Assembly (NCBI GenBank): GCA_020059045.1
Contig: JAGVCW010000023.1
Span: 1-50,188, forward strand
Reading direction: 5' to 3'
Source: Minisyncoccota bacterium
GTDB lineage: Bacteria > Patescibacteriota > Minisyncoccia > Phycocordibacterales > Zambryskibacteraceae
Length of the DNA stretch: 50,188 bases
Below, in pieces: positions 28,469-39,462 of this stretch. A program made the position numbers and the translations under genes. Under the pieces are notes generated by a model. The model worked only from the letters and a program-made list of their open reading frames with translations. It was not told the origin of the DNA and did no database searches. Numbering within the stretch: the first letter of the stretch is position 1; every line of letters starts with the position of its first letter.

Positions 28469-29368
28469 ATGAAAAAAATCATTATTGTGCTTGTTATTAT
28501 TATCATTGCAGGTCTTGGTTTCGTGTACTTCAAGAAAGGAGCTCCCGATGACACCTTGCCACCGACTGGGCAGAACAACGCCACTTCAACACCTACAGGT
28601 GAGCAGACTGGTGAGACGGTAGATAATACAAAAACGGTTATAGGTAAAACTGTGGAAGCTCGTGATATTACTGCGTATCACTACGGTACAGGAGATACTG
28701 AACTATTATTTGTTGGTGGTATCCATGGCGGATATGAATGGAATACAGTTCTTGTAGCCTACGAAATGATGGACTATTTGGAAGAAAATCCAAATGTTCT
28801 ACCAAAGAACGTAAAAGTAACAGTAATCCCGGTACTTAATCCTGATGGTCTAAACAAGGTTGTAGGTAAGGCTGGTCGCTTTTCTCCATCTGACGTATCG
28901 GCATCACAGACTACTGTAGTGTCCGGTCGCTTTAACGCAAACACTGTCGATCTCAATCGCAATTTTGACTGTGATTGGCAATCAACTGGTACATGGCAGA
29001 ACAAGGCTGTAAGTGGTGGAAGTAAAGTATTTTCTGAGCCAGAAAGTCTTGCTGTGAAAAACTATGTAGAATCACATACACCAGCTGCTGTCATAGTCTG
29101 GTACAGTGCGGCAGGTGGCGTGTACGCATCAAGTTGTCACAGTGGTGTACTACCAGAGACACTTGCTATTACTAACGCATATGCAAAGGCATCTGGCTAT
29201 CCAGCACATGAAAGCTTCGATTTCTACGAAATAACTGGTGATATGGTGAATTGGTTTGCCAAGAACAAGATTCCAGCGATTAGTGTACTACTTACTAATC
29301 ACACTGATATTGAATGGGACAAGAACAAGGCGGGCATAGACGCATTGCTTAAATACTACACAAAGTAA
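28469..29368 (+). CDS. M14-type zinc carboxypeptidase-like protein, probably inactive
   Basis: The 299-residue product has a signal anchor (IIIVLVIIIIAGLGFVYF), a Thr/Pro linker and an M14 metallopeptidase fold: FVGGIHGGYEWNTV, VIPVLNPDGLN, and VDLNRNFDCDW. In this copy the position of the third zinc ligand is Tyr (WYSAAGG, residue 212) where the next gene has His, and the position of the catalytic Glu is Leu (SVLLTNHTDIEW, residue 274) where the next gene has Glu. Fold residues are kept, so it may bind rather than cut peptidoglycan or peptides. It is 12 nt ahead of its paralogue, a tandem duplication. Confidence 0.88.
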   Translation: MKKIIIVLVIIIIAGLGFVYFKKGAPDDTLPPTGQNNATSTPTGEQTGETVDNTKTVIGKTVEARDITAYHYGTGDTELLFVGGIHGGYEWNTVLVAYEMMDYLEENPNVLPKNVKVTVIPVLNPDGLNKVVGKAGRFSPSDVSASQTTVVSGRFNANTVDLNRNFDCDWQSTGTWQNKAVSGGSKVFSEPESLAVKNYVESHTPAAVIVWYSAAGGVYASSCHSGVLPETLAITNAYAKASGYPAHESFDFYEITGDMVNWFAKNKIPAISVLLTNHTDIEWDKNKAGIDALLKYYTK

Positions 29369-29380
29369 CGTACGTAAAGA

Positions 29381-30268
29381 ATGAGTTCTTTTTTCTCTAA
29401 GCGAGTTGTTGTAATTATACTAACGCTTGCCATAGTTGGTGCAGTAGTATTTGTCGTGTCGAATAAAAAGGATGCCGAACCAGGACTTTCACCTGCAACT
29501 GAGGAAAATAATATTGATCCGAAACAGACGGTAATTGGTACATCCGTCGAAGGTCGGGCAATAGATGCATATTCGTTTGGAAGCGGAGACAGGCACATTG
29601 TTTTTGTAGGTGGTATTCATGGTGGGTATGAATGGAACAGCGTGGTTCTAGCATATGAGTTTATTGGCTATTTTCAGGTAAATCCTATGGTAGTGCCGGA
29701 AAACACGAGAGTTACAGTTATTCCCTCCGCAAATCCTGACGGCGTGTACAAGGTGGTTAGCAAAGTTGGTCGCATAACACTTGCAGATATTCCTGTCGTC
29801 ACAAAAGAAGTTTCTGTGTCTGGCAGGTTCAACGCTCGGAGTGTTGATCTCAATCGTAACTTCGATTGTAAGTGGAAACCGACAAGTACGTGGCAGAGTA
29901 AAACTGTAAGTGCTGGTACAAAAGCATTCTCTGAACCAGAAGCTAAAGCTCTACAAAATTTTGTTTTAGAATCTAGCCCAGACGCAGTTATTTTCTGGCA
30001 TAGCCAAGCGAATGCTGTGTATGCTTCAGAGTGCGAAGAAGGAATTCTTCCAGAGACCCTAGATATTATGAATGCATACTCTGTTGCATCAGGTTACCCG
30101 GCAGTGGAATCATTTACAGCTTACTCTATAACTGGAGATGTAGAAGGGTGGCTGGCTTCTATAAATATTCCAGCAATCACAGTTGAGCTTAAAACTCATG
30201 AGACGATTGAGTGGGAGAAAAACCTGGCTGGTGTTAAGGCCATTTTCAAATACTACAGTCAAAAGTAG
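29381..30268 (+). CDS. M14-type zinc carboxypeptidase-like protein, active form
   Basis: The 295-residue paralogue of the previous gene has a signal anchor (VVVIILTLAIVGAVVFVV), then the same domain with VGGIHGGYEWNSV, VIPSANPDGVYK and VDLNRNFDCKW. Unlike its neighbour it keeps His in WHSQANA (residue 207) and Glu in ITVELKTHETIEW (residue 269), so it should be an active metallopeptidase of the M14 type. Extracytoplasmic; likely substrates are peptides or the peptide stems of the wall, but this is an inference. Twelve nt separate it from its paralogue and both are probably on one transcript. Confidence 0.9.
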   Translation: MSSFFSKRVVVIILTLAIVGAVVFVVSNKKDAEPGLSPATEENNIDPKQTVIGTSVEGRAIDAYSFGSGDRHIVFVGGIHGGYEWNSVVLAYEFIGYFQVNPMVVPENTRVTVIPSANPDGVYKVVSKVGRITLADIPVVTKEVSVSGRFNARSVDLNRNFDCKWKPTSTWQSKTVSAGTKAFSEPEAKALQNFVLESSPDAVIFWHSQANAVYASECEEGILPETLDIMNAYSVASGYPAVESFTAYSITGDVEGWLASINIPAITVELKTHETIEWEKNLAGVKAIFKYYSQK

Positions 30269-30368
30269 GTAGTTTAGAGCACTCAGTCTTCCAAGTATTC
30301 CTATTGAGAACTCAGGCATCGCGCAATGGGATTAAAATTGTAATAATTTAAATCACACACAATAATCC

Positions 30369-30755
30369 ATGAAGACAAAGCAAAATAAATCAAGCAAGAA
30401 GTTCACAACAATAAGTGGCTATATAAGCTTATTTCCAAAGGATGTTAAGGCAAAACTTGAGACCATTCGTAAGATGGTCAAAAAGCTTGTGCCTCAAGCA
30501 GAAGAGAAAATAAGTTATCAGATTCCTTCATTTAAGCTTAACGGTGCTTATCTAATATATTTTGCAGGGTGGAAAGAGCATATATCGCTCTATCCAATAT
30601 CAGGTAACTTACCTCTATTAAAAAAAGATTTAGTAGGTTACAGAACCTCTAAGGGAACTGTACAATTTCCACTTGATAAACCATTACCGCTAGCGCTTAT
30701 TCGTAAAATTATTTTGTATCGCGTAAGGGAAAATGGCAAAAAAGTAGTAAAGTAG
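30369..30755 (+). CDS. DUF1801 / YdhG-type protein
   Basis: The 128-residue protein matches the DUF1801 family: ISGYISLFPKDVKAKLETIR near the start, AEEKISYQIPSFKLNG and AYLIYFAGWKEHISLYP, then SKGTVQFPLDKPLPLALIRK and IILYRVREN. The Bacillus relative is an iron-chaperone frataxin-like protein; whether that applies here is unknown. The gene ends inside a three-copy 8-bp tandem repeat. It begins a series of small soluble proteins that continues to 33862. Confidence 0.85.
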   Translation: MKTKQNKSSKKFTTISGYISLFPKDVKAKLETIRKMVKKLVPQAEEKISYQIPSFKLNGAYLIYFAGWKEHISLYPISGNLPLLKKDLVGYRTSKGTVQFPLDKPLPLALIRKIILYRVRENGKKVVK

Positions 30756-30765
30756 TAAAGTAGTA
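30742..30765 (+). repeat. Tandem repeat AAGTAGTA x3
   Basis: Three exact 8-bp copies (30742-30765) overlap the last codons and stop of the DUF1801 gene; copy-number change would alter only the last residues or downstream spacing. Confidence 0.8.
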
Positions 30766-30801
30766 AGTAAGATAGAGCAGTTTATTATTTCGCTAAATCA
30801 T

Positions 30802-31260
30802 ATGCAAAAAATACATTTTAAAACATTTATAAGTGCACCAAGAGAAAAAGTTTGGAACACAATGCTTGATGATGAAACATATCGAAAATGGACAAGTGCA
30901 TTTAACCCAGGTTCATACTATAAGGGTGATTGGAATGAAGGGTCGAAAATCTTATTTCTCGGACCTGATCCAACGGATCCTGCCATTGAAGGTGGGATGG
31001 TTAGTAGGATTAAAGAAAATCGTAAATACGAATTTATTTCTATTGAACATTTGGGTCTAGTTAAAAATGGTGTAGAAGACACGACAAGTGATGAGGCGAA
31101 GAAGTGGACACCTGCTTATGAGAATTACACTTTTACTGAATTGGATGGTGGAACAGAACTTATAATAGATATGGATATAGAAGATGCGTATAAGGGAATG
31201 TTTGAAGAAATGTGGCCGAAAGCACTGGAAGCTCTCAAGAAACTTGCTGAGACTAACTAA
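30802..31260 (+). CDS. SRPBCC (AHSA1-like) domain protein
   Basis: The 152-residue single-domain protein has the SRPBCC pattern: IHFKTFISAPREKVWNTMLD, WTSAFNPGSYYKGDWNEGSK, an acidic beta stretch (FTELDGGTELIIDMDI) and a C-terminal helix with WPKALEALKKLAE. Such proteins bind hydrophobic ligands or, in the AHSA1 group, regulate chaperones. A second SRPBCC protein (33434-33862) lies in the same stretch. Cytoplasmic; ligand unknown. Confidence 0.87.
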   Translation: MQKIHFKTFISAPREKVWNTMLDDETYRKWTSAFNPGSYYKGDWNEGSKILFLGPDPTDPAIEGGMVSRIKENRKYEFISIEHLGLVKNGVEDTTSDEAKKWTPAYENYTFTELDGGTELIIDMDIEDAYKGMFEEMWPKALEALKKLAETN

Positions 31261-31300
31261 CGAGGACCTTCATAAGCAGGTAATTTGAAACAATATAAAA

Positions 31301-31801
31301 ATGAATAAAAATATTTTTGGACAAGAGTTTTCTAGAGAGTTAGAAACAGAAATTATGGCGAGCCGTAAATGCTTGGAAAGAATTGATGAAAGTCTCTTTG
31401 ATTACAAACCCCACGAAAAATCAATGCAGATGGGCTACCTCGCTCTTCTTGTGGCCGATATCCCCAAGTGGATAGCTGTTACAGTAGAAAAAGGAGAAAT
31501 TGATTTGGCAACTTGGGAAAAATTTAAGCTAACAAGTAAGGATGAGCTTGTAAAGTATTTTGATCAAAACATTGAGACTGCAAAGCAGGTGTTACAAAAC
31601 ACCAATGACGAAGCGCTTGAAGAAATGTTTTATCTTAAGATGGGAGGAAAGGAACTTATGAAATCTTCGAAAAAGGAAAGTGTAAGCAGCTCTCTAAACC
31701 ATTGGGTTCACCATCGTGGGCAGCTTACTGTATATATGCGTCTTAACAATCTTCCAGTTCCATCTATATACGGGCCATCTGCAGACGATAAATCTTTTTA
31801 A
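31301..31801 (+). CDS. DinB-fold (YfiT-like) protein with altered metal site
   Basis: The 166-residue product belongs to the DinB/YfiT four-helix family of metal-dependent thiol-transferase-like proteins: YKPHEKSMQMGYLALLVADI PKW near residue 36 and SLNHWVHHRGQLTVYMRLNN LPVPSIYG near the end. The C-terminal histidines are kept. The first metal ligand (His in the usual LATHxAEIPxW) is replaced: LLVADIP. Metal binding may therefore be weak or absent. It is unrelated to the polymerase gene dinB at 38206. It belongs to the stress-type cluster with the SRPBCC and VOC genes. Confidence 0.87.
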   Translation: MNKNIFGQEFSRELETEIMASRKCLERIDESLFDYKPHEKSMQMGYLALLVADIPKWIAVTVEKGEIDLATWEKFKLTSKDELVKYFDQNIETAKQVLQNTNDEALEEMFYLKMGGKELMKSSKKESVSSSLNHWVHHRGQLTVYMRLNNLPVPSIYGPSADDKSF

Positions 31802-31845
31802 CGTGTTATTGTCAGAACAAGTTGATTTTTTTGCCCAAATTATAG

Positions 31846-31874
31846 TTGACAGGTGGGTACCTATGGTGTATACT
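31846..31874 (+). promoter_or_regulatory. Promoter of the 31927 gene
   Basis: TTGACA (31846-31851), 17-nt spacer, TATACT (31869-31874); near-consensus. Confidence 0.85.
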
Positions 31875-31926
31875 ATTTAATAGTGTTCTTTGAAGTTTCT
31901 TCTCACTTCTTCCAGAGGTCTTACTC

Positions 31927-32790
31927 ATGGGTCGCTCATTTGCAGCATCCGTAGGAGCATTTGTTGGAGCAATCTCTACCTTGCAGTTTGGTGGTGGCTA
32001 TATTGCGACCGCTCTCTCAATGTTCGTGGGTGGGCTGGTTGCGTGGATTGTGTGCGACGTCCGCGCACTCGCTTTTGGCATCACTCGCGCCTTCCGTGAA
32101 AGCTTCACTCGGCTTGCCAATTGGCGACCCGATAGACAACGTGCACACTGGGCTTTTTCACATGGTCTAAGTCACGTGATGCGATTTTATTCTGTCATTC
32201 TGACACCCATATTCTTGCTTGCAATTTGGCATATGGGGTTCGCCGCGACCATCCATGAGATAGTGACTCTTCAATCAGGGTTTACCATTACCTTTGGGTT
32301 CGTCTCAATCTTTGCCGCAGAGGTTGGTGTCTTGGTGGGTCACGATACCTACAAAGGCGAAAAGAAAGAAACACGAGGTCGGCGTGCACAAGTTACTGCA
32401 CGAAGAGGGTGGAGAAAATTTTTCTATCAAGGGAACCCTGTTGTTTGGTCGTTCTGGGTGGCTGGCTGCTTGCTCCAGGGCAGTATCTGGGCCTTGAAGT
32501 TCGTGACCCAAGTCCCGTCTCTTGCACTCAAGGCAACCGGGGCTTTATGGAGATTCCTTCAGCTTTCATTTGCTTATACGCATACCGACGAGAGAAGGTT
32601 GTGCTTTCTTGATGCGGTGATCGGAGGAGCTGTAGGTATTTACTACGGCAACCCGGCAATAGGATCGGCAGTGGGGGGCGTTGTTGGTTACTTGTATGCG
32701 CCTTTTACTCAAGATGTTGCACTACGTTTGCAGGCGAGATTCGAGGTTGAAAAGCTTCGTCTCGCGGAAGCAGTTCTTGTGGAGAGGTAG
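31927..32790 (+). CDS. Orphan multi-helix membrane protein, GC-rich gene
   Basis: The 287-residue protein is not recognised. Hydrophobic segments lie at about 5-45, 85-108, 112-137, 172-200 and 230-260, separated by basic loops (KGEKKETRGRRAQVTARRGW). The last hydrophobic region is glycine-rich (VIGGAVGIYYGNPAIGSAVG), like channel or holin-type helices. AGAGG stands 8 nt before the ATG, with its own near-consensus promoter and terminator. Composition differs from the flanking AT-rich genes, and it interrupts the small stress-protein cluster, so it may be an insertion. Confidence 0.75.
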   Translation: MGRSFAASVGAFVGAISTLQFGGGYIATALSMFVGGLVAWIVCDVRALAFGITRAFRESFTRLANWRPDRQRAHWAFSHGLSHVMRFYSVILTPIFLLAIWHMGFAATIHEIVTLQSGFTITFGFVSIFAAEVGVLVGHDTYKGEKKETRGRRAQVTARRGWRKFFYQGNPVVWSFWVAGCLLQGSIWALKFVTQVPSLALKATGALWRFLQLSFAYTHTDERRLCFLDAVIGGAVGIYYGNPAIGSAVGGVVGYLYAPFTQDVALRLQARFEVEKLRLAEAVLVER

Positions 32791-32803
32791 TAAAATTGGT
32801 AGG

Positions 32804-32832
32804 GCGTGAGTTTACAACTCGCGCTCTTTTTT
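32804..32832 (+). terminator. Terminator of the 31927 gene
   Basis: GCGTGAGTT (32804-32812), loop TAC, AACTCGCGC (32816-32824), then TCTTTTTT. Confidence 0.88.
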
Positions 32833-32934
32833 GTAACAAAGAAAGCTTGGTATGAATGTAGAACTTTATTCCCAAAAGAATTATAATGACATTCTATTAT
32901 AAGTAACTTCTCGATAAACTCGAGACGACAAACA

Positions 32935-33372
32935 ATGGCAAAAGTAAGCACATACCTTAATTTCCCGCGTAATACAGAAGAAGCATTCAACTTTTATAAA
33001 TCCGTTTTTGGTGGAGAGTTTGTAGGTGGCATACATCGTTTCTCGGAAGTGCCTTCGCAAGTTGGACAACCTTCTATGAAAGAAGAGGACAAAAACTTGG
33101 TTATGCATGTAGCTCTTCCTATCCTTGGTGGCCACATGCTTATGGGAACTGACGCACCAGAATCGATGGGATTCACTGTTAAATATGGCAACAATATTTA
33201 TATTAATCTTGAGCCAGATACACGCACCGAAACGGAGAGGTTATTCAATGCTTTGTCAGAAGGTGGCAAAGTGGAAATGAAGCTGCAAGAAATGTTCTGG
33301 GGAGACTACTTTGGCTCTTGCTCTGACAAATTTGGAGTACAGTGGATGTTTAACTGTTCGTCCAAAAACTAG
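32935..33372 (+). CDS. PhnB-like VOC superfamily protein
   Basis: The 145-residue glyoxalase-fold protein begins with the family signature (STYLNFPRNTEEAFNFYKSV FGGEF), followed by MHVALPILGGHMLMGTDAP and the C-terminal WGDYFGSCSDKFGVQWMFN. This group is often annotated as PhnB or 3-demethylubiquinone-9 methyltransferase-like; real substrates are mostly unknown and can include drugs bound for protection. It is part of the run of small stress-type proteins. Confidence 0.9.
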   Translation: MAKVSTYLNFPRNTEEAFNFYKSVFGGEFVGGIHRFSEVPSQVGQPSMKEEDKNLVMHVALPILGGHMLMGTDAPESMGFTVKYGNNIYINLEPDTRTETERLFNALSEGGKVEMKLQEMFWGDYFGSCSDKFGVQWMFNCSSKN

Positions 33373-33433
33373 TTGATAAACGATGATAATTTTGTATTTT
33401 CCCGCCATACACTGAGCATAAATAAAAGTATTT

Positions 33434-33862
33434 ATGAATAACACATATATTGCTACGTCATCAGTTGGGATCAAAGCTACTAAAGGCAAGGTGTGGGAGG
33501 CACTTGTAGCACCTGAGCTTATAAAAGAATATTTGTTTGGGACTAATGTTAAATCAGATTGGAAGATTGGGAGTCCAATTACATACGAAGGGATGTGGGA
33601 AGGTAAGTCATACGAGGACAAAGGGACCATTGTTAATATCGTGCCGGAGGAAATACTTGAAACAACATATTGGAGTAGCGTAGGAGGGCTCCCAGATCAG
33701 CCAGAGAATTACAAGAAAGTCATATATAAATTGGAAGAGATAGATGAAGGAACGAAACTTACGATTACGCAAGACAATAATCCAACCGAGGAATCAAGAG
33801 ATCACTCAGAGAAGAATTGGGGAATTGTGCTAGATAGTTTAAAAAAACTTCTTGAAAAATAA
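33434..33862 (+). CDS. SRPBCC (AHSA1-like) domain protein
   Basis: The 142-residue single-domain protein has SSVGIKATKGKVWEALVAPE, KEYLFGTNVKSDWKIGSPIT, YKLEEIDEGTKLTITQDNN and a closing helix with NWGIVLDSLKKLLEK. It is a second member of the SRPBCC family in this cluster, only distantly similar to the 30802 gene. It is closest in pattern to the ATPase-activator-of-HSP90-like group of stand-alone bacterial proteins. Ligand unknown. Confidence 0.87.
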   Translation: MNNTYIATSSVGIKATKGKVWEALVAPELIKEYLFGTNVKSDWKIGSPITYEGMWEGKSYEDKGTIVNIVPEEILETTYWSSVGGLPDQPENYKKVIYKLEEIDEGTKLTITQDNNPTEESRDHSEKNWGIVLDSLKKLLEK

Positions 33863-34777: not shown

Positions 34778-35095
34778 ATGAAAACTTTTAGCCAAAAAGT
34801 GGTTCTGCTTGCGCTATCTATTCCGAAAGGAAGAGTTACAACATATGGACGTATTGCTCGTGCGGCCGGAGGTGGGAGCATGGCCTCACAAAGTGTCACA
34901 GCAGTTCTTGGTAAAGCATATGACGCGGGTGAGAAGCAAATTCCGTTTCATAGAATAGTGTATGCAAACGGCCGAATATGGGTTAGCCCAAAGTACCGTA
35001 AAGACAGAATGCGGATGTACAAAGCGGAAGGAATAAAAGTTGACAAACAAGACAAAATTGTAGATTTTGGAAAACTACTATTTGAATTTAAATGA
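34778..35095 (+). CDS. atl: Alkyltransferase-like protein (ATL)
   Basis: ATL proteins bind O6-alkylguanine in DNA but cannot transfer the alkyl group, and direct the lesion to nucleotide-excision repair. The 105-residue product is the DNA-binding domain of O6-methylguanine methyltransferases (VVLLALSIPKGRVTTYGRIA, HRIVYANGRI), but the active-site PCHR is PFHR (56-59), Cys to Phe; characterised ATLs usually have Trp there. The base-flipping arginine position appears to be Gln (ASQSVTAVLG), which would be unusual and should be checked by alignment. The helicase gene starts 4 nt after the stop and the nuclease follows, so it forms a repair operon. Confidence 0.9.
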   Translation: MKTFSQKVVLLALSIPKGRVTTYGRIARAAGGGSMASQSVTAVLGKAYDAGEKQIPFHRIVYANGRIWVSPKYRKDRMRMYKAEGIKVDKQDKIVDFGKLLFEFK

Positions 35096-35099
35096 TTGT

Positions 35100-36833
35100 A
35101 TGGCAGAGTCTATACAAATGACTCAACAGGATGCACTTAAAATACTTAAAACAGGAGCAAATGTCTTTCTAACTGGAGAGCCAGGATCGGGGAAAACGTA
35201 TACAGTTAATGCGTTTGTTTCACATTTACGCGATTACGCTATTGAGCCAGCCATTACCGCTTCGACTGGTATTGCGGCTACTCATATCGGCGGGATGACC
35301 ATACACTCATGGGCAGGTATAGGTATAAAGAGCAAGTTGGATAAATACGAGCTAGACAGGATTGCATCAAGCGAGCATATCGCAAAGCGTATTCGGCGAG
35401 CTCGGGTGCTTATTATTGATGAAATATCAATGCTTCCACCAGAGACTCTGTCTATGGTCGACGCAGTGTGTAGAGAGGTGAAGCAAACAAGTGAGGCCTT
35501 TGGAGGACTGCAAGTAGTATTTGTCGGTGACTTCTTTCAGCTACCACCCATAATAAAAAATTTGTCACGAGACCAAAATGAAAGTGATTCCCAGGAGGAG
35601 CTTTTTCTAGAAGAAGTAAAAAGGTTTGCTTATGACTCACCTGCATGGCTTGCAGCTAAGCCCCTAGTGCTCTATCTAACCGAACAACACAGACAGGATG
35701 ATGGAGATTTTCTTTCAGTTCTGTCTTCTATTAGGGACAACACTTTTGATGAAACGCATCTTAAAACTGTGGGGACACGTAAGTATGTAATGAAGGATAT
35801 AAAGGATAATATTCCAAAACTGTTTTCACACAATGCCGATGTTGACTCTGTGAATCTAGACAAACTCTCACAGATCAATATGGATGAGAAAAAGTTTGTT
35901 ATGGCCTATGAGGGGAGAGAAGGTCCTGTAGCTGCACTCAAGAAGGGGTGTCTCTCCCCAGATGAACTTAGTCTTAAAGTGGGAGCTCAAGTTATGTTTA
36001 CAAAAAATAATGTTAACGCTGGGTTTGTAAATGGAACGCTTGGGGTGGTAAAAGAATTTGATAGTCTAGATGGCAAACCGGTAGTTCTCACAAGAAGTGG
36101 TCGGTTGATTACGGTTAGTGAGATGGATTGGACAGTGGAGGAAGGTGGAAAAATAAAAGCGCGAATTTCACAAATTCCACTCAGACTTGCCTGGGCAATA
36201 ACAGTTCACAAAAGCCAGGGAATGAGCTTGGACGAGGCCGTCATGGACCTGAGTGACGTCTTCGAATATGGGCAGGGCTATGTGGCACTCTCAAGAGTAC
36301 GGCGACTAACCGGTCTATATATTATAGGTTGGAATGACATGACTTTCCGGGTTCATCCGGAGGTTCTAGAAAAAGATACCGAATTTAGAACTCTATCAGA
36401 GGCAGCATGCAAAGCTTTTGACGAAATTGCATCAGTAGAGTTAAGCACAATGCATGAGAACTTTATAAAGGCCTCGGGTGGCAGGTATGTTCAAAACAAA
36501 AGAAAGAAAACAAAAGGCTTGAAAAGAGAAATGGGAGATAGTGCGAATGTTACTATGCAGTATATAAAAGACGGCAAGAGTGTCAAGGCAGTAGCTTCCG
36601 AAAGGGGACTTGTTCCTACAACAATAGTTTCCCATATTGAAGAACTTTTTGAATCTGGCAAACTTGTGCGTGACGATATAAGGCACTTAGCGTCTGGCAC
36701 ACTGAAAGATTTAGAAGTTTTACAAAATGAGCTTCGCAAAGATGAAAAAATGAAATTAAAACCAGTGTTTGAAAGATTTGATGGTAAGTACTCCTATGAG
36801 GATATACGTGTTGCACGATTGCTTTTAGAATAA
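35100..36833 (+). CDS. Pif1/RecD-like helicase with C-terminal helix-turn-helix domain
   Basis: The product from the ATG at 35100 is 577 residues of SF1B helicase: Walker A GEPGSGKT, ASTGIAATHIGGMTIHSWAG, Walker B VLIIDEISML, GDFFQLPP, TEQHRQ, VHKSQGMSLD and VALSRVRRL, in the correct order. The last 120 residues hold a helix-turn-helix unit (KDGKSVKAVASERGLVPTTI VSHIEELFESG), as in RecQ-type and other CPR Pif1 helicases. It unwinds DNA 5' to 3' in the family. The frame also opens at 35067, inside the ATL gene, and at 35118, which gives the common MTQ start. It lies between ATL and nuclease with 4-nt gaps on both sides. Confidence 0.92.
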   Translation: MAESIQMTQQDALKILKTGANVFLTGEPGSGKTYTVNAFVSHLRDYAIEPAITASTGIAATHIGGMTIHSWAGIGIKSKLDKYELDRIASSEHIAKRIRRARVLIIDEISMLPPETLSMVDAVCREVKQTSEAFGGLQVVFVGDFFQLPPIIKNLSRDQNESDSQEELFLEEVKRFAYDSPAWLAAKPLVLYLTEQHRQDDGDFLSVLSSIRDNTFDETHLKTVGTRKYVMKDIKDNIPKLFSHNADVDSVNLDKLSQINMDEKKFVMAYEGREGPVAALKKGCLSPDELSLKVGAQVMFTKNNVNAGFVNGTLGVVKEFDSLDGKPVVLTRSGRLITVSEMDWTVEEGGKIKARISQIPLRLAWAITVHKSQGMSLDEAVMDLSDVFEYGQGYVALSRVRRLTGLYIIGWNDMTFRVHPEVLEKDTEFRTLSEAACKAFDEIASVELSTMHENFIKASGGRYVQNKRKKTKGLKREMGDSANVTMQYIKDGKSVKAVASERGLVPTTIVSHIEELFESGKLVRDDIRHLASGTLKDLEVLQNELRKDEKMKLKPVFERFDGKYSYEDIRVARLLLE

Positions 36834-36837
36834 TTCT

Positions 36838-37560
36838 ATGAAGAATGCTCACAATATAGTATTGGTGAGTGTACTCAAAAGTAGGAGAGATGAGAGACTG
36901 CTTATAAAGGGGCATTGGTATAGAATTCCTCTAACAAGCTTACCTAAAAAGAAATTTAAATATATTGCGTTTTATAAACCAGCCATTTTTGGTAAAAGCG
37001 GAAAGAGAATCGAGTATTATTCTAAAGTAATAAAAAAAGATTTACATAAACGAATTGAACTTCTACCAAGGGAGGTCTTACATCCACAAGCAAACGAAAC
37101 TTATGTTAAGTTTACTCTAGATGATGTAGTGCGACTTAATAAACCAATAAAAAACATAATTCCACGCAGAATTTCCTTCGGCTTCACAACACTTAGTAGA
37201 CTACTTGGTTCAAAGGATATTTTGGAATTATATGGTGTAACACCAACTGAGCAAATTGTCAGGCTCGCTCTTCGAAAGAGGGGTATAAAGGTTGTTCGTG
37301 AGCACGGTGTTTCGTATAAAGGAAAAAGATATAGAATCGACCTTGCTCTAGTATGCAAGAATGGCAAAATCGCAATTGAGTGTGACAATCTGAAAGCTCA
37401 CAAGACCAATAGCCAAATTAGAAAGGATATAGCGAAGAATAGAGACCTTAGACTTCTTGGCTGGAAGGTAGTAAGACTCAAGGAGAAAGATGTTTTAGAA
37501 AATTTAGAATGGTGTATAGATAAAATAGTGGCTAGTGTCAGTGTTTTTGAAAGCTTTTAA
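36838..37560 (+). CDS. DUF559/Vsr-type endonuclease-fold protein
   Basis: The 240-residue product has an unrecognised basic N-terminal half (KSRRDERLLIKGHWYRIPLT). The C-terminal half is a nuclease fold of the PD-(D/E)xK type: EHGVSYKGKRYRIDLALV, IAIECDNLKAHKTNSQIRKD, then NRDLRLLGWKVVRLKEKDV, which follows the DUF559/Vsr order (D, ExD, His, Rxx..GW-V-R). It begins 4 nt after the helicase stop and ends near a minus-strand terminator. With ATL and a helicase it makes a plausible unit for processing alkylated or mismatched DNA. Confidence 0.82.
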   Translation: MKNAHNIVLVSVLKSRRDERLLIKGHWYRIPLTSLPKKKFKYIAFYKPAIFGKSGKRIEYYSKVIKKDLHKRIELLPREVLHPQANETYVKFTLDDVVRLNKPIKNIIPRRISFGFTTLSRLLGSKDILELYGVTPTEQIVRLALRKRGIKVVREHGVSYKGKRYRIDLALVCKNGKIAIECDNLKAHKTNSQIRKDIAKNRDLRLLGWKVVRLKEKDVLENLEWCIDKIVASVSVFESF

Positions 37561-37672: not shown

Positions 37673-37990
37673 CTAAAGCTGGGGCAAGGTTTCGCGAACG
37701 AAGTACCCGCCGTCGTTTGAGTGTGGAACATACACTCCGTGTCTTGCATTGTGCTCGAGGAGTGTATTTCGTAGTTCCCCACGAACACTTACCAGCTCAA
37801 CAGCACGTGCAATCCAGGGGCGTCCGTTTTCGTCGTAGACGACGGTTACACCGTTGTTGCTTCCATATGTGTTTGGCTCGCCGCGTTTGACAACGTTCCA
37901 GTCACCCATACCCGGACCAACTCGCTCGAGTGTGCCCAGTGCAGAGAAGAATCCGAGATCAATCAACATGTGTGAGAGCTTTGTACCCAT
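37673..37990 (-). CDS. Orphan hypothetical protein, GC-rich gene
   Basis: The 105-residue soluble protein is not recognised. The middle is a mixed-charge beta-type region (NNGVTVVYDENGRPWIARAV ELVSVRGEL) and the C-terminal part contains NARHGVYVPHSNDGGYFV. An AAGGAGG stands 6 nt before the ATG, and the promoter is consensus (TTGACA-17-TATAAT), so it may be strongly expressed. It has its own terminator and higher G+C than the flanking repair genes. Confidence 0.72.
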   Translation of the reverse strand: MGTKLSHMLIDLGFFSALGTLERVGPGMGDWNVVKRGEPNTYGSNNGVTVVYDENGRPWIARAVELVSVRGELRNTLLEHNARHGVYVPHSNDGGYFVRETLPQL

Positions 37991-38169: not shown

Positions 38170-38199
38170 TTGACTAAGTGAACCCTAGTTCACTATTAT
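38170..38199 (+). promoter_or_regulatory. Promoter of dinB, leaderless type
   Basis: TTGACT (38170-38175), 18-nt spacer, TATTAT (38194-38199); the -10 ends 6 nt before the ATG at 38206. Confidence 0.75.
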
Positions 38200-38205
38200 A
38201 TATGG

Positions 38206-39462
38206 ATGTCGGAACCATATTCTCTTAGAAGTTTTTCTCGGGCCATTATGCATATAGATGGAGATGCATTTTTTGCATCTGTAGAAATTGCTAAGAACCC
38301 AAGCCTTCGTGGTAAACCCGTTGTAGTGGGCAAAGAACGAGGTATTGCCTCAGCCTTCTCTTATGAGGCCAAAGCTCTTGGTATTACACGTGGGCTTCCG
38401 ATTTATCAAATACACAAGCGTTTCCCGCAAGTTGTGATACTTCCAGGCGATTACATTTCATATACAACTTATTCAGAAAAAATGTTTGATATTGTTCGGC
38501 GCTACACAGATAACCTAGAGGAATACAGTATTGATGAATGCTTCGCGGACCTCACTGGTTGGGATAAACCACTTAAAATGAGTTATGAGAAAATTCTTCT
38601 AAGAATTCAAAATGAGATAAAGGAAGAGCTTGATATAAGTGTATCCATCGGGCTTGCCTCGACAAAAGTGCTTGCCAAAGTAGCTTCAAAGTGGAGGAAA
38701 CCTGGAGGAATTACACTCATTCCCGATAACTTGGTTTACGAATTTTTGATTAAAACTCCAATTGAGAAAATTTGGGGAATAGGCAGAAGGACAAGCGTTT
38801 ATCTGAACAAGAAAGGAATTATAACCGCATATGATCTAGCAATAAAAGATGAAGCTTGGGTGACACACATTCTCTCAAAGCCTTATATAGAAATTTGGAA
38901 AGAACTTAATTGTATTCTAGTAAGCAAGGTTGATCCTAGAAAAAAAGATACGTATGCCTCAATACAGAAAACAAGAACTTTCTACCCGCCCACAAGTAAT
39001 CCAGAGATGCTTATGTCTCAAATCTCCAAAAACTTGGAAGGAGCATGTAGTAAGGCACGTCATTATTCTCTCAGAGCCTCTAGGGTTGCGATTTTTTTGA
39101 AAACCCAAGAGTTTAGATACTATTCCTGTGAGATCTCACTCCTTGCACCATCGAATATCCCTGAGATTATATTACCAATTGTTCGTAAAGAATTTCCAAA
39201 AGTTTTTAGGAGTGATCGAGTTTATCGTACTACAGGAGTAACCTTACGAGATCTTGTTTCGGGAGAGATGCGACAGGAAAGTTTGTTCGGTGAGGACAAA
39301 AAGGACAAAAAATTTGAAATCATACACAAGGAAGTAGATGCTCTGGTTGAAAAGTTTGGGGTAGGGGTAGTACACCTTGCTTCTACCAATAAAGCATTTC
39401 GCAAGCAGACTAGGGGAGCTACTGATACAGATGATTTAGATAGAAATTTGCTATTTTTATGA
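38206..39462 (+). CDS. dinB: DNA polymerase IV (Y family)
   Basis: Y-family polymerases copy damaged templates with low fidelity. The 418-residue product has HIDGDAFFASVE (first metal-binding Asp), EYSIDECFADLTG (catalytic Asp-Glu pair), SIGLASTKVLAKVASKWRKP GG, the helix-hairpin-helix IWGIGRRTSVYLNKKGI and the little-finger domain. RQESLFGED near residue 360 is a clear beta-clamp-binding motif (QxxLF). The leaderless promoter is well defined. It lies after the ATL-helicase-nuclease operon and reads in the same direction, so the stretch is a DNA-damage block. No LexA box was seen before it. Confidence 0.96.
   Translation: MSEPYSLRSFSRAIMHIDGDAFFASVEIAKNPSLRGKPVVVGKERGIASAFSYEAKALGITRGLPIYQIHKRFPQVVILPGDYISYTTYSEKMFDIVRRYTDNLEEYSIDECFADLTGWDKPLKMSYEKILLRIQNEIKEELDISVSIGLASTKVLAKVASKWRKPGGITLIPDNLVYEFLIKTPIEKIWGIGRRTSVYLNKKGIITAYDLAIKDEAWVTHILSKPYIEIWKELNCILVSKVDPRKKDTYASIQKTRTFYPPTSNPEMLMSQISKNLEGACSKARHYSLRASRVAIFLKTQEFRYYSCEISLLAPSNIPEIILPIVRKEFPKVFRSDRVYRTTGVTLRDLVSGEMRQESLFGEDKKDKKFEIIHKEVDALVEKFGVGVVHLASTNKAFRKQTRGATDTDDLDRNLLFL

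Follow-up and report, generated by a model that had tools for sequence, protein, structure and literature searches.

Three closely spaced genes of a Patescibacterium encode an ATL protein, a Pif1-like helicase and a Vsr/DUF559-type nuclease. Do they make up one DNA repair pathway, or is the functional unit smaller than the gene cluster? The stretch of DNA analysed here (50,188 nucleotides, hereafter the window) is one of the 30 contigs of a 0.90-Mb genome. The original prediction for this locus was a self-contained pathway, in which the ATL senses a lesion, the helicase unwinds the DNA and the nuclease cuts it. The open reading frames match that prediction exactly as to number of genes, coordinates and spacing (Table 1). 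The ATL gene ends with TGA at 35095 and the helicase gene starts with ATG at 35100, while the helicase gene ends with TAA at 36833 and the nuclease gene starts with ATG at 36838, leaving a gap of 4 nt in both cases. Such gaps on one strand imply co-transcription of the three genes. The identities assigned to the ATL, to the helicase with its helix-turn-helix tail and to the DUF559-type nuclease were confirmed with Pfam.

Table 1. Features of the locus, in window positions
Feature	Position	Strand	Basis or remark
ATL, 105 aa	34778-35095	+	PF01035 3e-12; PFHR replaces PCHR; Gln at arginine-finger position
Pif1-like SF1 helicase, 577 aa, C-terminal HTH_40	35100-36833	+	Pfam profiles and motifs
PUA-like and Vsr-fold nuclease, 240 aa	36838-37560	+	Pfam, alignment, AlphaFold, Foldseek
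Nuclease, predicted N-terminal PUA-superfamily (ASCH/YTH/EVE-like) domain, ~residues 1-125	36838-37212	+	AlphaFold, Foldseek, conservation
Nuclease, C-terminal Vsr-like PD-(D/E)XK domain (MTES_1575/DUF559), ~residues 137-240	37246-37557	+	Pfam, alignment, Foldseek
Convergent ORF, 105 aa, no Pfam family	37673-37990	-	Between nuclease and dinB
Pol IV (dinB)	38206-39462	+	Outside the unit

The ATL protein and its neighbourhoods in related genomes

The first protein of the cluster is homologous to the MGMT DNA-binding domain, and phmmer matched it to the known ATLs vpATL (2kif, 1e-7) and Atl1 (3gva, 2e-5). Alignment bore out the predicted change of PCHR to PFHR. The active-site Cys is replaced by Phe or Trp in 19/19 members of the ATL subfamily, which was defined at E < 1e-20 in 197 genomes of the order, and the general MGMTs of the ATL-bearing genomes keep PCHR. 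The genome of the window has a second MGMT-family gene of its own (G000:C8:106001-106258), which is canonical, with PCHR and an arginine finger. The window ATL thus shares the MGMT DNA-binding fold and the replaced active Cys with Atl1, vpATL and the E. coli ATL; it differs from them in having Phe for the usual Trp, in the Gln at its finger position and in lacking linkage to NER genes. A review lists the arginine finger and a Tyr as conserved in ATLs and gives Trp as the usual substitute for the Cys (PMC10779285). The window ATL keeps the Tyr, that of TTYG, and departs from this pair of residues in its Gln, which it shares with eight other members of the subfamily, Arg being found in nine and Met in one. 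A single-sequence structure model of the protein was poor (pLDDT 48) and was left unused. The genome offers an ATL its usual partners, since it encodes UvrA (1164 bits with neighbours) and a UvrC-like protein that scores below the family cut-off. None of the papers in the library searched joined ATL with CPR.

Conservation of the three-gene order had been proposed as a test of the prediction, and in the genomes sampled the order was confined to this one. The ATL subfamily occurs in 19/197 genomes of the order, and the 18 relatives of the window ATL (43-70% identity) have neither the helicase nor the nuclease nearby (within several kb, or less than 6 kb per side on short contigs), nor any recurring neighbour gene family. 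Full-length nuclease relatives occur in 7/197 genomes of the order, of which none but that of the window has the ATL subfamily, and an ATL of this kind is absent from 49 nuclease loci found elsewhere in GTDB genomes. The family of the window comprises 31 genomes; the 30 others contain neither a close ATL nor a full-length nuclease. In a 380-genome sample of the phylum (E <= 1e-15), the ATL subfamily was found only in the window. The neighbourhoods of the ATL relatives, the 49 nuclease loci and the 31 family genomes together led us to reject an ATL-helicase-nuclease module. The ATL is probably a neighbour by chance, standing outside the module, and would have no role in a unit formed by the helicase and the nuclease.

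These results bear directly on the pathway originally predicted, in which the ATL would bind O6-alkylguanine and hand the lesion to the linked helicase and nuclease, as a self-contained alternative to NER. The co-transcription implied by the 4-nt gaps speaks for such a pathway, as does the fact that seven other genomes, from four families, carry MGMT/ATL-family genes no more than 3.5 kb away from the helicase. These latter genes, however, are canonical MGMTs located downstream of the helicase, partly as a matter of local synteny, while the ATL relatives share no neighbour with one another and none of the nuclease loci has such an ATL. Moreover, UvrA and the UvrC-like protein exist in the genome, the arginine finger listed as conserved in ATLs is a Gln here, and the nuclease bears a reader-like domain of its own. 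We therefore regard the pathway as very unlikely. The unwinding and cutting half of the prediction finds support in the recurrent adjacency described below, and the half that made the ATL the sensor does not, for want of linkage in relatives.

The canonical MGMTs were also observed in their own right. Each is encoded on the helicase strand, at a distance of between 29 nt and 3.5 kb on the downstream side, and they are 59-71% identical to the PCHR-bearing MGMT of the window's genome. By our estimate one or two genomes with an MGMT/ATL-family gene near the helicase would be expected, against the seven found. In four loci (L137, L138, L139 and L143) the helicase is followed by a canonical MGMT, in several cases together with an EVE-domain gene and rpoB, and the proximity is partly local synteny with these two genes; this gene order recurs in some families of Patescibacteria. 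The proximity points, if faintly, to a common repair neighbourhood, in which the enzymes bear the Cys and are not ATLs.

Recurrent pairing of the helicase and the nuclease

The helicase belongs to the Pif1-like proteins, with matches to PIF1 (PF05970, 7e-34) and Pif1_2B (PF21530, 1e-8), and a C-terminal HTH_40 (2e-17). Its motifs are intact, from Walker A (GEPGSGKT) and Walker B (IIDEISM) to the later SF1 motifs GDFFQLPP, TVHKSQG and YVALSRVR. It was found in 134/197 genomes of the order and, in another count, in 278/397 genomes, and is thus near-housekeeping. Since it mostly occurs without an adjoining nuclease, it need not be dedicated to the nuclease. Conversely, all 7 nuclease-bearing genomes of the first sample of the order possess the helicase.

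A same-strand helicase adjoins the nuclease in 11/49 other nuclease loci (L090, L092, L095, L096, L103, L104, L106, L110, L114, L122 and L126), where about 0.1 would be expected by our estimate, taking two flanking genes out of some 900. Both orders are represented, with the helicase upstream in seven of the loci and downstream in four. The gap between the two genes, 4 nt in the window, measures 16-57 nt in L095, L096, L104 and L126, and in L103 the two are separated by a winged-helix gene. The association recurs across Patescibacteria lineages, the titles of the paired loci naming Taylorbacteria, Sungbacteria, Paceibacter, Jorgensenbacteria, Brennerbacteria, Uhrbacteria, Nomurabacteria and Wolfebacteria. 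On a tree of 47 nucleases, adjacency to the helicase requires eight changes, at least six of which are forced by well-supported branches; the pairing is therefore not one inherited arrangement. A further pair was found in L163, one of 40 helicase neighbourhoods, seven of which had been chosen for a nearby MGMT. The remaining 38/49 nuclease loci are without an adjacent helicase, some of them ending at contig ends. The gene order suggests that the helicase and the nuclease may come into physical contact.

The only other frequent neighbour of the nuclease is a short gene for an ArsR/MarR-type winged-helix protein, present in 18 loci by loose clustering and equally or more frequent than the helicase. 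In L097, L099, L103, L109, L121, L124, L125 and others, this gene lies 40-105 nt from the nuclease. Its product is a possible regulator.

Domain structure of the nuclease

The C-terminal part of the nuclease matches MTES_1575 (6e-15) and DUF559 (3e-6). The presence of catalytic residues, a further test proposed for the prediction, was confirmed in an alignment of 47 sequences: D168, E181, C182, N184 and H188 are invariant and D183 is conserved in at least 90%, so that D168, E181-x-D183 and H188 are all invariant or nearly so. Judged from the alignment, these residues are the expected Vsr/DUF559 core. Foldseek matched the same part to I-Bth0305I (3r3p, TM-score by target 0.73) and to 3hrl, both of which were found again as weak matches in a profile search of PDB sequences. 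The predicted Vsr/DUF559 fold was thus upheld, whereas a separate PUA-like domain in the first ~125 residues had been missed. This region matches no Pfam family, yet it is conserved as strongly as the C-terminal part, with W27, Y28, P31, Y46, R72, Y89, N106, R110, R111, F114 and F116 invariant. AlphaFold, run with relatives, gave a confident two-domain model (pLDDT 92.3), and Foldseek matched the N-terminal part to the ASCH domains 5y6c and 5gus (E 5e-4 to 1e-3), the YTH domain 4u8t (2e-3) and the N-terminal domain of S. marinus McrB (6n0s, 2.5e-3), the modification-reading part of an archaeal protein. These matches are moderate (TM-score by target ~0.5). By model and Foldseek, the protein is a fusion of a PUA-superfamily domain with a nuclease. 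The fold suggests that the N-terminal domain may read bases. Of its invariant residues, W27, Y28, Y46, Y89, F114 and F116 are aromatic, candidates for a pocket around a flipped base.

An RNA target deserves mention here, as ASCH and YTH domains, the best Foldseek matches, include many that act on RNA, and as Pif1 helicases are known for their link to RNA-DNA hybrids. The N-terminal domain might then bind modified RNA or R-loops, where the nuclease would act while the helicase removes the hybrids. Against this, the catalytic domain is Vsr/DUF559-like, which is a DNA nuclease fold, and its D/E-x-D/H residues are conserved. We consider this explanation improbable, DNA being the presumed target of the nuclease. 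One member of the ASCH group, ZmASCH, is a ribonuclease acting on single-stranded RNA, to go by a title cited in PMC7641849.

Proposed model: a base-reading nuclease assisted by a helicase

The best explanation of the locus, to which we give about an even chance as a whole, is that the functional unit consists of the helicase and the nuclease without the ATL, the nuclease depending on modified or damaged bases and the helicase assisting it. The catalytic residues and the adjacency of the two genes are direct evidence; the mechanism that we propose is conditional. The N-terminal domain would bind an altered base, be it an epigenetic or phage modification or a lesion, and the base would presumably be flipped into a pocket, by analogy with the EVE, YTH and SRA readers. 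The Vsr-type domain may then cut or nick the DNA nearby, and the HTH-tailed Pif1-like helicase would probably load at the nick or remodel the DNA around the marked base, leading to removal of the strand. The ATL gene would have arrived upstream of the pair through gene shuffling and, if functional, would act apart, perhaps with UvrA/UvrC.

Parts of this arrangement have precedents. Many modification-dependent endonucleases are fusions of a PUA-superfamily sensor with a nuclease (PMC7897488), and the two parts of PvuRts1I are a Vsr-like nuclease and an SRA-like reader (PMC4157451). The window nuclease has in common with the 5hmC-dependent endonucleases PvuRts1I and AbaSI the Vsr-like PD-(D/E)XK nuclease and the PUA-superfamily reader. 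It differs from them in that its reader is N-terminal, the reverse of their domain order, and closer to ASCH, YTH and the McrB N-terminal domain than to SRA, in its length of ~240 aa and in the adjoining helicase; by Foldseek it does not have the N-terminal nuclease and C-terminal SRA-like reader of the PvuRts1I family. With EVE-HNH endonucleases such as VcaM4I it shares an N-terminal PUA-superfamily sensor and a C-terminal nuclease (PMC7897488), the nuclease being of Vsr fold instead of HNH and having a helicase neighbour. ProA, Hhe and PDC-S37 (MTES_1575/DUF3320) possess a Vsr-type nuclease of the same family, with SF1 helicase and winged-helix parts, whereas the window has separate short genes, a Pif1-like helicase in place of the large fused one and the added PUA-like domain. 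In the MTES_1575 protein itself, from which the family takes its name, one chain carries a Vsr REase, an SF1 helicase and winged-helix domains (PMC3710099), and so unites the same functions.

A rival explanation is antiviral restriction, in which the PUA-Vsr protein would cut modified incoming DNA, the helicase would aid its degradation and the winged-helix proteins would act as regulators. The nuclease is patchily distributed (7/197 genomes of the order) relative to the broadly distributed helicase (134/197). Its nearest named profiles are those of antiphage ProA (2e-8), PDC-S37 and Hhe, relatives of the MTES_1575 type occur in DUF3320 helicases on plasmids, and a PUA-nuclease architecture is found in Type IV enzymes (PMC7897488). 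However, the recurrent neighbours, judged by sequence and not by a full defence scan, include no prominent known defence genes, the helicase is near-housekeeping, and the searched viruses and plasmids held no copies of the full-length nuclease. We consider restriction a possible reading, if on balance an unlikely one.

Whichever altered base the nuclease may recognize, it belongs to a small family with a predicted base reader that occurs across the ultra-small Patescibacteria, recurrently in the company of one helicase. None of the papers in the library searched named DUF559 with Patescibacteria. It is tempting, if rather doubtful, to regard these PUA-Vsr nucleases as an undescribed Patescibacteria family of base readers with a new PUA-like domain, which together with the Pif1-like helicase provides a compact excision pathway for modified or damaged bases alongside NER. 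The family offers a concrete target for asking how genomes so reduced detect and eliminate altered bases, or withstand phages whose DNA is modified. The locus also illustrates that a tight three-gene operon in a single genome can conceal a real two-gene association plus one passenger.

Genes flanking the cluster

DNA polymerase IV does lie downstream on the same strand, as had been noted, but it is not a member of the unit. The convergent ORF between the nuclease and dinB has an AAGGAGG Shine-Dalgarno sequence and a perfect (12/12) extended sigma-70 consensus at 38086-38058, and dinB has a promoter-like site of its own at 38170-38199. The convergent gene with its perfect promoter consensus cuts dinB off, making Pol IV a separate unit and ruling it out as a fourth gene. 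A perfect 18-bp palindrome, AGTGAACCCTAGTTCACT, at 38177-38194 overlaps the promoter-like site of dinB, its core corresponding to the Gram-positive LexA-like GAAC-N4-GTTC. It is the sole perfect copy in the genome, and its interpretation as a genome-wide SOS box was rejected. Upstream of the cluster, 28469-33862 holds a run of small stress and small-molecule genes that looks acquired, encoding two M14 carboxypeptidases, a DUF1801 protein, two AHSA1 proteins, a DinB-family (YfiT-like) protein and a glyoxalase-like protein.
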